The notes under the pieces were generated by a model. That model was not told the origin of the DNA. It made no database searches and saw nothing but the letters and a program-made list of their open reading frames with translations. A program made the translations under genes and the position numbers. From assembly GCF_017377735.1 (NCBI RefSeq), contig NZ_JAFVMH010000001.1:434001-498000 (forward strand): a DNA stretch of 64,000 bases. The letters run 5' to 3'. Source of the stretch: Acetobacter garciniae. GTDB taxonomy: Bacteria; Pseudomonadota; Alphaproteobacteria; Acetobacterales; Acetobacteraceae. Positions 48,177-53,526 of the stretch are shown piece after piece; position 1 is the stretch's first letter; every line of letters starts with the position of its first letter.

Positions 48177-51100
48177 TTAGAACGATCCACTAAAATATGA
48201 CTGAAGCGGCGCAACTTCAAGCGGTCCTTCGCGCATTGCCGCAATGGCATGCACCGCCGCCCGCGCTCCGGCCATGGTTGTGTAGTGCGGAATGCCCAGA
48301 ACAAGGGCTGAACGGCGGATATCGAAGCTGTCGGCCACCGACTGCGCGCCGCGTGCGGTGTTGATGACCATCTGCACCTCGCCCGAGCGGATGGCGTCCA
48401 CGCAGTGCGGGCGGCCTTCAAGCACCTTGTTCACCACTTCCACCTCGATCCCGGACTCGCGCAGCCGGCGGGCCGTGCCGCGCGTGGCCAGGATCTTGAA
48501 GCCCATGGATGCCAGCAGGCGGCCAAGGGCCGCAAGCTGGGGCTTGTCGCTTTCACGCACGGACAGGAAGATCGTGCCCGACATGGGCAGCTTGACCCCC
48601 GCCCCAAGCTGCGACTTGGCGAAGGCGCGCTCGAAGGAGGTGTCCAGCCCCATGACTTCACCCGTGGAACGCATTTCCGGGCCCAGGATGGTGTCCACTT
48701 CGGCAAAGCGGTTGAAGGGGAAGACCGCTTCCTTCACCGCGACATGCGGCACCACCGCCCGGTCGTCCAGGTTGAAGGTGGACAGTTTGTCACCCGCCAT
48801 GACGCGCGCGCCGATCTTGGCGACCGGAACGCCCGTGGCCTTGGCCACGAACGGCACCGTGCGCGACGCGCGTGGGTTGACCTCCAGCACGAACACTTCC
48901 TGGTCCTTGATGGCGTATTGCACGTTCATCAGCCCGACAATGCCAAGCTCGCGCGCCATGGCTTCGGTCTGGGCCTTCAGTTCGGTCACGATGGCGGGGG
49001 AAAGCGTGTAGGGCGGCAGGGCGCAGGCACTGTCGCCCGAATGAATGCCCGCCTCCTCGATATGTTCCATGACGCCGGCCACATACACTTCCGTCCCGTC
49101 GGAAATGCAGTCCACATCGGCCTCGATCGCTTCGTTCAGGTAGCGGTCGAGCAGGATCGGCCCCGATGAGATATCGTGCCCCGCATGGCGCAGCACGTCG
49201 CGCATGTAGCGCTGGAGCGACGCGCGGTCATAGACGATTTCCATTGCCCGCCCGCCCAGCACGTAGGACGGCCGCACCACGACCGGATAGCCCACGCGCT
49301 CGGCCACGGCCTCGGCTTCCTCCGGGTTGCGGGCAATGCCGTTTTCGGGCTGGCGCAGGCCGAGCTTGTGCAGCATGGCTTGGAACCGTTCGCGATCCTC
49401 GGCCCGGTCGATCGCATCGGCCGGGGTGCCCAGCAGCGGAATGCCGGCCGCTTCAAGTGCACGCGAGAGTTTGAGCGGGGTCTGCCCACCGTACTGGACA
49501 ATGCAGCCCTTGACCGTGCCGTTCTGCTGTTCGCGGCGGATCAGGGCGATCACGTCCTCGGCCGTCAGCGGTTCGAAATACAGCCGGTCGGACGTGTCGT
49601 AATCGGTGGACACGGTCTCGGGGTTGCAGTTGACCATAATGGTCTCGTAACCGGCTTCGCGCAGGGCGTAGGCGGCATGCACGCAGCAGTAATCGAATTC
49701 GATCCCCTGGCCGATGCGGTTGGGCCCGCCACCCAGGATGACGATCTTTTCACGGTCCGTGGGATCGGCCTCGCAGGTCGGAGGGGTGAACAGCCCCTCG
49801 TAGCTGGAATACATATACGGCGTGGCGGATGTGAATTCACCCGCACAGGTGTCGATACGCCGATAGGCGGGCACCACGCCGGCCTGAAGACGCAGCTTCT
49901 CGACCTCGCTCGCCTGCGTGCCCGAAAGGCGGGCAAGCTGCACGTCTGAAAAGCCCAGCGCTTTCAGGCGGCGCAGGCCCTGTGCATCCTTGGGCAGGCC
50001 GTGGTTTTCCACCATGCGTTCGGCCTGGACCAGCGTTTCGAGCTGGCGCAGGAACCACGGTTCGAACTTGCAGGCTTCGTTGATATCCTCGACCGAAAGC
50101 CCCGCGCGCAGGGCTTGTGCCGCCATGAGAATACGCTCGGGCCGCGGCTGGGACAGGGCTGCGCGGAATGCGTCTTCCCCGCCATCACCGGGCACTTCGA
50201 CCGGGTCCAGCCCGTGCAGGCCGGTTTCCATCGAACGCAGGCCCTTTTGCAGCGCCTCGGGGAAGGAGCGGCCAATGGCCATGGCCTCGCCCACCGACTT
50301 CATGGAGGTGGAGAGCAGGGCAGGGGCACCGGGGAATTTCTCGAACGTGAAGCGCGGGATCTTCACCACCACGTAGTCGATCGTCGGCTCGAACGAGGCG
50401 GGCGTGGTGCGGGTGATGTCGTTTTTCAGCTCGTCAAGCGTGTAGCCGACCGCAAGCTTGGCCGCCACCTTGGCAATGGGAAAGCCCGTGGCCTTGGATG
50501 CCAGTGCGGAAGAGCGTGAAACACGGGGGTTCATCTCGATCACCACCATGCGGCCGTCGGCAGGGTTGATGCCGAACTGCACGTTCGATCCACCCGTTTC
50601 CACCCCGATGGCCCGCAGGCACGCGATGGAGGCATCGCGCATGCGCTGGTATTCCTTGTCGGTCAGCGTCAGTGCCGGCGCCACGGTAATGGAATCGCCC
50701 GTATGCACGCCCATGGGGTCGATGTTTTCGATGGAACAGATGATGATGCAGTTGTCCGCCGTGTCGCGCACGACTTCCATTTCATACTCTTTCCACCCCA
50801 GCACGGATTCCTCGACCAGCACTTCGGTGGTGGGGGAGGCATCCAGCCCCGAGAGCACGATCTGGTCGAACTCCTCGCGGTTATAGGCAATGCCGCCACC
50901 AGACCCACCCATGGTGAAGGACGGGCGGATAATGGAGGGAAAGCCGATCTGCTTGAGCGCGTCATGCGCTTCGGCCAGCGTATGGGCGATCAGGCTGCGC
51001 GGGCTTTCGATGCCGATGGCGTCCATCGCCTCGCGGAATTTCTGACGGTCTTCGGCGCGGTCGATCACATCGGCCTTGGCCCCGATCAGTTCCACATTAT

Positions 51101-51431
51101 GCTTTTCCAGAAAGCCCGAGGCATGCAGCGCCATGGCGGTGTTCAGCGCTGTCTGCCCACCCATGGTCGGCAGCACGGCGTCGGGCTTTTCTTTCAGGAT
51201 AATGCGTTCGACCACTTCGGGCGTGATCGGTTCCACATACGTGGCATCGGCCAAGCCTGGGTCGGTCATGATGGTGGCCGGGTTGGAATTGACCAGAATG
51301 ACCCGGTAGCCTTCCTCGCGCAGGGCCTTGCAGGCCTGTGCGCCCGAATAATCGAATTCGCACGCCTGGCCGATGACAATGGGACCGGCGCCGATGATGA
51401 GGATGGAGCGAATGTCTGTCCGTTTGGGCAT
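48177..51431 (-). CDS. carB: Carbamoyl-phosphate synthase large chain
   Basis: This chain makes carbamoyl phosphate from bicarbonate, ammonia and two ATP for pyrimidines and arginine. The 1084-residue protein begins [20 protein letters not shown] and has two duplicated ATP-grasp halves ([12 protein letters not shown] in the first, [20 protein letters not shown] in the second). A C-terminal MGS-like regulatory domain (last ~140 residues) includes [20 protein letters not shown]. It starts 16 bases after carA. Confidence 0.97.
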
Positions 51432-51447
51432 GATACGTGCGGTCCTG

Positions 51448-52854
51448 TCAGTTCTTGGCGCCGTGGGTGTCGATCAGGGTGGCAAACCGTTCAAACAGGT
51501 AAAAACTGTCGGACGGGCCGGGGCTGGCCTCGGGGTGGTACTGCACCGAAAATGCGGCATACCGGCTTGTCGCCAGCCCTTCGTTCGAACCGTCGAACAG
51601 GCTGACATGCGTGACATGCGCATCATCCGGCAGGGTGTCGGCGTCCACTGCAAAACCGTGGTTCTGGCTGGTGATCTCCACCCGCCCGGTCTGCAGGTCC
51701 TTGACCGGCTGGTTCGCACCCCGGTGGCCGCGCTCCATCTTGTAGGTCTTGGCCCCCAGTGTCAGGGCCAGAAGCTGGTGCCCCAGGCAGATGCCGAACA
51801 GCGGCACGCCGGCTTCCAGCACAGTGCGGATGGCGGGCACGGCGTAGCTTGCCGTGGCCGCCGGATCGCCCGGCCCGTTGGAGAGGAAAACCCCTTCGGG
51901 CTTGAGGGCCAGGATTTCCTCACCCGTCGTGGTGGCGGGCACGACTGTCACGTCGCAGCCGGCGGCTACCAGGCAGCGCAGGATATTGCGCTTGGCCCCG
52001 TAATCCACCGCCACCACGCGCCTGCGCCGGGCGGGGACGGCGCGCGCGCCATGCGGCCATTCCCATACGCTGTCCTGCCAGGTGTAAGGTGCGGCGCAGG
52101 TCACCTCGCGCGCGAGATCCATGCCTTCAAGCCCCGGCCAGGCGCGCGTTTCGGCCAAAATGCCTTCAAGGTCGAAACGGCCATCGGCGGGGAACACGAG
52201 GGCTGCCGTCTGCGGTCCCTTGTCGCGAATGATCAGGGTCAGCGCGCGGGTGTCCACCCCGGCAATACCGGCCACGTTGCGTTCCTTCAGCCAGGCGTCC
52301 AGGCTTTCGGTCGCGCGCCAGTTGGCGGGGGCGGTGGGGTCTTCCTTCACCACCAGGCCGCGGGCGAACACGCGGGCGGCTTCGTCATCCTCCGCATTCG
52401 CGCCGACATTGCCGATATGCGGGAAGGTGAAGGTGATGATCTGCCCCGCAAAGGACGGGTCCGTCAGGGTTTCCTGGTAGCCGGTCATGCCTGTGGAAAA
52501 GCAGATTTCGCCAATGGCCGGGCTGGGTGTGAAGGCGCCGAAGCCCTTTCCCCACAATACGCTGCCATCTGCGAGAACAAGAGCGGCGGTGGCGCCATCG
52601 GGGCGGGCGTCGGGCATGGATGTTCCTGTCTTGCTGCCTTCCGCATGCGGGAAGGATCGGTCTGTCACGGTGGGTGCGGGCTGGAGGTCATCCAGCGAAA
52701 GGCCGGTCGCCTGCGCGATCGCGGGCCAGTGCCTGGCCGGAATGGCCTGGGCCTGGCGCCATTTGCGAATGGCCTCGGTGCCGACACCGGTCAGTCTGGC
52801 GGTGGCGTCTGGCCCGCCAATGCGGGCAATGATGGAATCGATTGACATGGACAT
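51448..52854 (-). CDS. carA: Carbamoyl-phosphate synthase small chain with fused N-terminal HTH domain
   Basis: This glutaminase subunit supplies ammonia to CarB. The 468-residue protein exceeds the usual ~380-390. The CarA core starts near [20 protein letters not shown] (ATG 52617) and holds the nucleophile in GICLGHQ and the His/Glu pair in QYHPEAS. The first ~60 residues ([20 protein letters not shown], then [20 protein letters not shown]) look like a Cro/YdaS-type helix-turn-helix. I recall this as the carph-isopro domain. ATG 52854 is chosen with GGGAGG 12-13 bases upstream; ATG 52884 is in frame. AGGAA precedes the internal ATG 52617. Confidence 0.9.
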
Positions 52855-52904
52855 GGCCTGGGCTGTGCCTCCCCGTCTGGCCATCTAGCATTTCGGAATC
52901 CCTT

Positions 52905-52964
52905 TGGGAAGAAATTTCCCACCTGTTCGGCGCATGAGAAAAACCCATGGGAAATTTTTTCCCT
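52905..52964. promoter_or_regulatory. Pair of TGGGAA-N5-TTCCC inverted repeats between carA and yqeY
   Basis: Site 1 is TGGGAA (52905-52910), GAAAT, TTCCCA (52916-52921). Site 2 is TGGGAA (52948-52953), ATTTT, TTCCCT (52959-52964). Their centres are 43 bp apart, about four helical turns. A further half-site pair TCCC/GGGA lies at 52899-52909. This is a likely operator, perhaps for the helix-turn-helix domain fused to CarA. Confidence 0.6.
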
Positions 52965-53070
52965 CCGGGGTGGATGCCTTTTGCCGGCGCCGGGTGGTAT
53001 GGTGGGTCAGGACCTTTATTCAGGCGTTCTCGCACCGGGGGCGCCAGCATTTGCCGGAGCAGACAAGTCC

Positions 53071-53526
53071 ATGACCCTTCGTGAAAACCTTATGGCCGAC
53101 TTAAAGACAGCCATGAAGGCGGGTGAAAGCGCGCGTGTCGCGACCATCCGCATGATAACGGCCCGGCTGAAGGACGTGGAAATTGCCGGCCGCGCCAAGG
53201 GAGCGACAGAACTGGGTGAGGAAGAAGCCCTGTCCGCCCTGCGCGGCATGATCAAGTCTCGCACGGAATCGGCGACGATGTACCGCGATGGCGGCCGCCC
53301 CGAACTGGCGGACAAGGAAGAAGCCGAAATAGCCGTGATCCGGAGCTACCTGCCGCCGGAACTGGACGAAGCGGCGTTGCACGCAGCAGTGGACGAGGCC
53401 ATCGGCACCGCGGGTGCGACCACGCTCAAGGACATGGGCAAGGTGATGGCGGCACTCAAGACCCGCTTTGGGGCGGCACTGGACATGGCGCGCGCCAGTG
53501 CGGCCGTCAAAGCCCGGCTGGGCTGA
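53071..53526 (+). CDS. yqeY: GatB/YqeY domain protein
   Basis: This 151-residue protein starts MTLRENLMADLKTAMKAGES and contains RSYLPPELDEAALHAAVDEA and KDMGKVMAALKTRFGAALDM, the YqeY/GatB tail fold. Free-standing YqeY proteins are thought to aid tRNA-dependent amidation or tRNA binding, but no function is proven. It lies directly before dnaG and rpoD, the common alphaproteobacterial replacement for rpsU in the macromolecular synthesis operon. It is divergent from carA. The start is ATG 53071, where the family N-terminus begins. Confidence 0.9.
   Translation: MTLRENLMADLKTAMKAGESARVATIRMITARLKDVEIAGRAKGATELGEEEALSALRGMIKSRTESATMYRDGGRPELADKEEAEIAVIRSYLPPELDEAALHAAVDEAIGTAGATTLKDMGKVMAALKTRFGAALDMARASAAVKARLG

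Follow-up and report, generated by a model that had tools for sequence, protein, structure and literature searches.

CarA of Acetobacteraceae as a probable trigger enzyme acting on its own carAB operon

Introduction

Carbamoyl phosphate is a precursor of arginine as well as of pyrimidines. In Escherichia coli, carAB is controlled by PepA, PyrH, ArgR, PurR, RutR and IHF, and trigger enzymes take part in this control, as set out in the available part of one account (PMC6245113). BirA, NadR, PepA, PutA and PyrH are the E. coli trigger enzymes given in the available part of another (PMC8249747), and CarA is not named as a regulator in the accessible text of either. Can the small subunit of carbamoyl-phosphate synthase nevertheless regulate the operon that encodes it? 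This question is raised by a carA gene of Acetobacter garciniae on the minus strand (positions 51448–52854) of a stretch of 64,000 nucleotides (the window, to which all positions refer). A reading of the sequence alone had proposed that its product bears an extra N-terminal Cro/YdaS-like helix–turn–helix (HTH) domain and could act as its own regulator.

In the literature searched, which was mainly open access, no title or abstract opening concerns a CarA–HTH fusion and the term ‘carph-isopro’, the profile name of the domain, does not occur; the available main text of a Gluconobacter RNA-seq paper (PMC5756330) does not contain ‘carbamoyl’. The analysis described below indicates that CarA of Acetobacteraceae is probably a trigger enzyme that controls its own carAB operon, and that its likeliest role there is that of a repressor with a single target.

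CarA carries an N-terminal Cro-like domain

A single open frame of 478 codons (51448–52884, minus strand) encodes the protein. Relatives in the genus start at an M-x-[ML]-[ST] position that corresponds to 52854 here, and in some of them a stop codon immediately precedes it. The carA start is therefore placed at 52854, as in the sequence-only reading, which gives a protein of 468 amino acids within a frame that remains open up to 52884.

Residues 15–68 of the 478-codon frame (52681–52842, minus strand), which contain the recognition helix, match the NCBIfam model NF046037 (carph-isopro) over all of its 54 positions (1–54) with 66.8 bits, above the curated cut-off of 38. This result bears out both the proposed N-terminal HTH and the name carph-isopro, which the same reading gave for related fusions. 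The domain is thus a member of NF046037, a model that only names it, and we know of no operator tied to carph-isopro domains. Two Pfam models score below their own thresholds: PF15943 (YdaS) reaches 28.9 bits (E 1e-6), just under its gathering score of 30, and PF14549 (P22_Cro) reaches 16.0 bits with the whole protein and 20.6 bits with the segment, against a cut-off of 30.2. By this scoring the domain appears related to YdaS without being a member of that family.

Structure prediction points the same way. The full-length model (mean pLDDT 85.6) consists of a five-helix domain, a disordered stretch at residues 60–80 of 468 (pLDDT below 50) and the CarA body, in agreement with the earlier suggestion that a linker (52588–52680, minus strand) joins HTH and enzyme. 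When a model of the domain (mean pLDDT 80.1) was searched with Foldseek, the top matches were Cro proteins and phage repressors, the Cro matches having a probability of 1.00 and E values of 0.025–0.07; none of the 366 matches reached E ≤0.001. Profile matches to N15 Cro (E 9e-4) and Xfaso 1 Cro (E 2e-3) were also obtained. N15 Cro (2hin/6on0), Xfaso 1 Cro (3bd1) and P22 Cro share the predicted fold class and an aligned recognition helix with the CarA domain, in which R, K, W and R of this helix are invariant among 18 aligned proteins. The domain is thus probably Cro-like in fold, its link to P22-type Cro being one of fold and profile similarity only. Phage Cro proteins are small HTH proteins that act on palindromic sites, whereas the CarA domain is fused to an enzyme, whose body may provide the dimer interface.

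The enzyme body (51469–52587, minus strand) matches TIGR01368 with 448.5 bits (cut-off 307.35). The Cys of GICLGHQ and the His and Glu of HPEA, which we take to be the glutaminase residues, are invariant in 30 aligned proteins and, judged by profile and residues, the CarA body is intact. Only 16 nt downstream of carA lies a frame (48177–51431, minus strand) that, from its sequence, presumably encodes CarB, the large subunit, and the two genes likely form one operon, carAB.

The fusion is near-universal in Acetobacteraceae

A survey of CarA across the family, made by tblastn, found the HTH domain in 245 of the 250 genomes in which the start of carA was read, a set enriched for the KWRS type of recognition helix because sampling was partly aimed at it. 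The domain is retained as protein in 92 genera, and in 38 of 61 relatives it scores above the NF046037 cut-off. It makes up about 54 residues of an extension of 79–89 residues before the CarA body, the rest being a linker of variable length. This conservation rules out an artefact of gene calling, assembly or reading frame. The five starts outside the 245 comprise four HTH-less genes (in genomes G011, G015, G089 and G176) and one interrupted by a contig end (G095), in whose genome the domain is nonetheless found. A further candidate for an HTH-less gene (L165, in G148) was discarded, as the domain is present.

Broader searches gave a CarA match in 193 of 200 family genomes and a match to a 57-residue domain query in 373 of 397, the latter not in itself showing fusion to CarA. 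At E 1e-6, 62 of 289 genomes of the alphaproteobacterial class match the domain, including genomes of other families. One carA counted among the 245 (G009, locus L114 on contig C194) has a frameshift within the HTH domain, with its paired upstream sites (described below) intact; the frameshift may be either an assembly error or a recent loss.

A conserved candidate operator lies upstream of carA

Between carA and the divergently oriented next gene lie two palindromes, which the sequence-only reading had not noticed. The proximal one, GGGAAGAAATTTCCC, occupies 52906–52920 and is extended by its flanks to TGGGAA...TTCCCA (52905–52921); the distal one, GGGAAATTTTTTCCC, occupies 52949–52963, 43 bp from the first. 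Both are features without strand.

Across the family, GGAA-N5-TTCC occurs within 200 nt upstream of the domain start in 238 of the 245 HTH-carA genes, compared with 1.7 in shuffled sequences. By this strict definition, 128 genes have two sites and 117 have fewer than two, with 7 of the 245 having none. The sites are concentrated near −40 and −80, and 89% of the 128 spacings fall between 37 and 45 bp; within the genus, the spacing is 44 in 24 of 29. The gap between GGGAA and TTCCC is exactly five bases in 164 of the 196 carA regions compared across the family, and any other gap between 0 and 15 is seen in 0–5 of them. For 86 of 92 genera, a site is present in all members read. The centre of the palindrome is A/T-rich, as it is in the operators of phage repressors. 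We take the palindromes to be a conserved candidate operator of carAB. A promoter scan found no sigma-70-like promoter in 52400–53200, so the choice between repression and activation rests on analogy.

The candidate operator is nearly unique to carA in the genus

Of 37 genomes of the genus, 24 contain the tandem pattern, a single time each, whereas it is absent from 24 genomes of other families (control, 0). All 24 tandem loci hold a carA with the domain, including the broken copy in G009. The single motif is found at six places in the window’s genome, two at carA and four elsewhere, and its reversed control at three. Among 46 genus genomes, TGGGAA-N5-TTCCCA gives 70 sites against 5 for the reversed control. 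These 70 divide into 55 at carA loci that were read, 8 in five genomes that were not fetched and 7 elsewhere, one of the 7 coming from G714, another genome that was not fetched, where the two places fall on separate contigs. Counted by the strict motif, sites away from carA in the genus are therefore about as frequent as matches to the reversed control, weaker sites lying outside this count. Since the motif is close to chance away from carA, the operator apparently has a single target in the genus. This conserved and apparently single-target palindrome upstream of HTH-carA lends strong support to the idea of self-regulation.

One genome (G000, contig C34, at about 32.5 kb) encodes, beside an XRE-like regulator, a free-standing 67-residue carph-isopro-like protein (28.6 bits, below the cut-off); a GGGAA-N5-TTCCC site lies some 270 bp from the latter. 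Genome G022 has a site at a similar distance from its own short carph-isopro match.

Domain losses, and possibly helix types, track the operator

Three HTH-less carA genes were open to testing (G011, G089 and G176), and none has a site in 800 nt; the fourth, in G015, has 44 nt before the CarA body because of a contig end and was left out of this test. A quick tree of 119 CarA bodies, on which long branches near G126 and G089 warn of errors, separates two independent losses of the HTH, one in G011 and G015 and the other in G089 and G176. Both occurred in small genomes (1.5–2.1 Mb), which may have shed regulation anyway. All seven other small genomes that keep the domain (1.9–2.5 Mb) have one or two sites.

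The type of recognition helix also goes with the outer bases of the palindrome. CarA proteins of the KWRS type have C..G in 20 of 25 cases (G..C in 1, asymmetric in 4), and those of the KWRQ type, KWKQ included, have G..C in 183 of 210 (C..G in 5, asymmetric in 17, none in 5). Exceptions with KWRQ and C..G occur in g123 and g104, and KWRH is represented by one row with C..G and another with G..C. On the same tree, where 99 proteins have both traits, the helix changes three times and the operator four times. The KWRS genes form one clade (g48, g92 and g120), so that the covariation is close to a single event, and an independent-pairs test, for which there are too few pairs, is not significant. 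Covariation was rejected as proof, given what is essentially one concordant switch, and we regard it as suggestive.

HTH–HisZ has the same arrangement with another site

HisZ is the regulatory subunit of ATP phosphoribosyltransferase, and it too occurs fused to HTH domains. For HTH–HisZ of one HTH type, TTCAT-N5-ATGAA lies upstream in six of six loci (L490, L491, L492, L506, L508 and L518), and at two HTH–HisZ loci the motif is paired, 39 bp apart. The six HTH–HisZ come from two other families, and their helix differs from that of CarA. The motif was chosen after L441–L444 had been seen, which are the same genes as L492, L490, L491 and L518, leaving L506 and L508, both of one genus, as fresh loci. 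It is found at none of 22 unfused HisZ loci, nor at L494 and L495, where HisZ carries another HTH type.

Three lines of evidence, namely loss, specificity and the second enzyme HisZ, thus lead us to infer that the CarA domain itself binds the operator. The sequence-only reading, in suggesting that CarA is its own regulator, has in this way gained a conserved site that accompanies the domain and is absent from the testable genes without it, binding being the predicted step. A link to carbamoyl phosphate supply, or an effector such as UMP, arginine or glutamine, as that reading envisaged, would be a further possibility.

An alternative is that the palindromes are the operator of a separate transcription factor dedicated to this role in Acetobacteraceae, the CarA domain serving, for example, in complex assembly. 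Operator and domain are both near-universal in the family, such that shared ancestry alone could pair them, and their covariation is not significant on the tree. However, with sites near chance elsewhere in the genus, this account needs a dedicated one-target regulator for a gene whose own product has an HTH. It also sits poorly with the absence of sites in both HTH losses and with HTH–HisZ, where the same pairing is seen with another helix and another half-site, and we consider it improbable.

Considerably less probable is a function of the palindromes in RNA, as a short leader hairpin (attenuator or stability element): GGGAA-N5-UUCCC can make a 5-bp stem and a terminator scan picked the distal site, but such a stem is short, constraint extends to the A/T-rich centre, the copies lie about four helical turns apart at a near-fixed distance from the gene, and the presence of the site follows that of the HTH.

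An internal start may yield CarA without the HTH

In the window, a candidate internal ATG (52615–52617, minus strand; MPDAR...) would give CarA without the HTH, and a Shine–Dalgarno-like AGGA (52624–52627, minus strand) lies 10 nt upstream of it. Of 228 genes, 161 have an in-frame ATG within the linker and, with one gene counted per genus, so do 61 of 87 genera, the other 26 having no such ATG in the genes read; 30 of the 67 genes without it have GTG or TTG. The Shine–Dalgarno-like energy averages −4.79 kcal/mol at the internal ATG and −3.25 kcal/mol at the first start. In the 61 genera with such an ATG, the motifs AGGA, GGAG and GAGG, starting 8–14 nt upstream, occur at 0.10 per position at the internal ATG (0.01 at 20–39 nt) and at a lower 0.048 at the first start (0.006); common ancestry and the codon requirements of the linker limit this statistic.

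HTH-less relatives (L097 and L098) have MPDI at the place of the internal ATG, and the HTH-less CarA proteins of G011 and G015 have a Met there, which is likely the start in each case. These observations suggest that, in most genera, the internal ATG with its Shine–Dalgarno-like site gives rise to a second, HTH-free CarA. Because both starts may be used, a short form beginning at MPDAR would not by itself refute the long form.

The frequency of this ATG (161 of 228 genes) and its energy, better than that of the first start, would also fit a passive, relic HTH or translation solely from the internal ATG, so that no HTH is made, but we give this reading very little credence, given the HTH kept as protein in 92 genera, a recognition helix with invariant R, K, W and R, and the 67 genes that lack a linker ATG, 30 of them with GTG or TTG.

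A model for autoregulation by CarA

In the model that we favour, the N-terminal Cro-like domain would bind, as a dimer, one or two palindromes of 15–17 bp upstream of carA. The site in the genus would be TGGGAA-N5-TTCCCA, and paired sites, about four helical turns apart, might be bridged. Long CarA, when bound, would hold carAB down, a repressor role proposed from the analogous cases of Cro, PutA and BirA. Dimerisation may come from the CarA body, by itself or together with CarB, as may the signal, which could be the free versus CarB-bound state of the subunit or its ligand state. Uptake of CarA into the complex with CarB, or a changed ligand state, would then weaken binding. In most genera, the internal start would add a CarA without the HTH, and a single gene could in this way provide both a regulator and a plain subunit. 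Among these steps, the clause supported by sequence evidence is the binding of the sites by a dimer.

With Acetobacter, Komagataeibacter and Gluconobacter all in industrial use, autoregulation of this kind should be easy to test. Like PutA, BirA and NadR, CarA would combine a metabolic enzyme with transcription control, its DNA binding being predicted. The likeness to PutA extends to the target: PutA confines its binding to the putA–putP spacer (PMC8249747, available part), much as the CarA candidate operator is confined to carA. CarA differs from these three enzymes in its Cro/YdaS-like HTH, in its 5-N5-5 palindromes, which are often in tandem, and in a likely HTH-free isoform. In E. coli, the same operon is governed by regulators that are separate proteins (PMC6245113, available part), whereas here the regulator is apparently CarA itself. 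Thus, control of carbamoyl phosphate, which in E. coli needs many separate proteins, seems in Acetobacteraceae to be given in part to the enzyme. If this is true, an essential housekeeping enzyme would double as a one-target transcription factor and offer a clean case in which to ask how the assembly or the ligand state of an enzyme is conveyed to DNA. It would also provide a search handle for more such enzymes, namely an N-terminal HTH together with a palindrome about 40 bp upstream.

HTH domains on other enzymes and proteins

Among the loci read, several have the domain on HisZ, and PdhA, ArgB, Ccr, PyrB and a YjeF-like protein carry it at one or two loci each. A single example of each of HisZ (in two types), PdhA, ArgB, Ccr and PyrB was named through NCBIfam, the others being assigned by eye. 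Fusions to PyrB (L460 (L458), L477 and L486) carry a carph-isopro domain in G346 and an XRE-like one, by eye, in G440 and G335. N-terminal HTH domains on PdhA, ArgB and Ccr were named by NCBIfam at L445, L447 and L457 and recognized by eye at L446 and L148; that on a YjeF-like NAD(P)HX epimerase (L141) was recognized by eye.

A palindrome rule for all HTH–enzyme fusions was also considered. In a first set of fusions, 9 of 12 loci have a 5-N5-5 palindrome in 130 nt, where 2.9 are expected and none of 200 shuffles did as well; a spacer of 7 gave 8 of 12 (0 of 200 shuffles), some of these palindromes being shared with the 5-N5-5 count. A second set, which overlaps the first and consists of PyrB and HisZ fusions, gave 6 of 11 for 5-N5-5, with 3.4 expected and 8 of 100 shuffles as good, and 7 of 11 for each of spacers 3 and 4 (1 of 100 shuffles each). 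Unfused PyrB and HisZ loci have the 5-N5-5 palindrome in 8 of 46, with 7.6 expected, after 3 of 49 were dropped for having no nearby ATG or being too short. The rule did well in the first set but poorly in the second and was set aside; of these results only the HisZ motif stands, and the fusion class otherwise remains a proposal.

This broader proposal, which we hold tentatively and at somewhat less than even chance, is that Alphaproteobacteria hold a class of enzymes with built-in operators, comprising CarA and HisZ together with PyrB, ArgB, PdhA, Ccr and NAD(P)HX epimerase, these last in one or two genomes each. Every such enzyme would read 5-N5-5 palindromes of its own, some 40 and 80 bp upstream, the helix setting the half-site. 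For CarA, internal initiation would make a regulator-enzyme and a plain enzyme, and the operon would sense small subunit free of CarB.

Among the loci read, the domain is found most often on coiled-coil membrane proteins that resemble Mic60/mitofilin by eye (several of L024, L036 and L124–L150). In these Mic60-like fusions, a domain of DNA-binding type stands at the N terminus of long proteins with a membrane segment.
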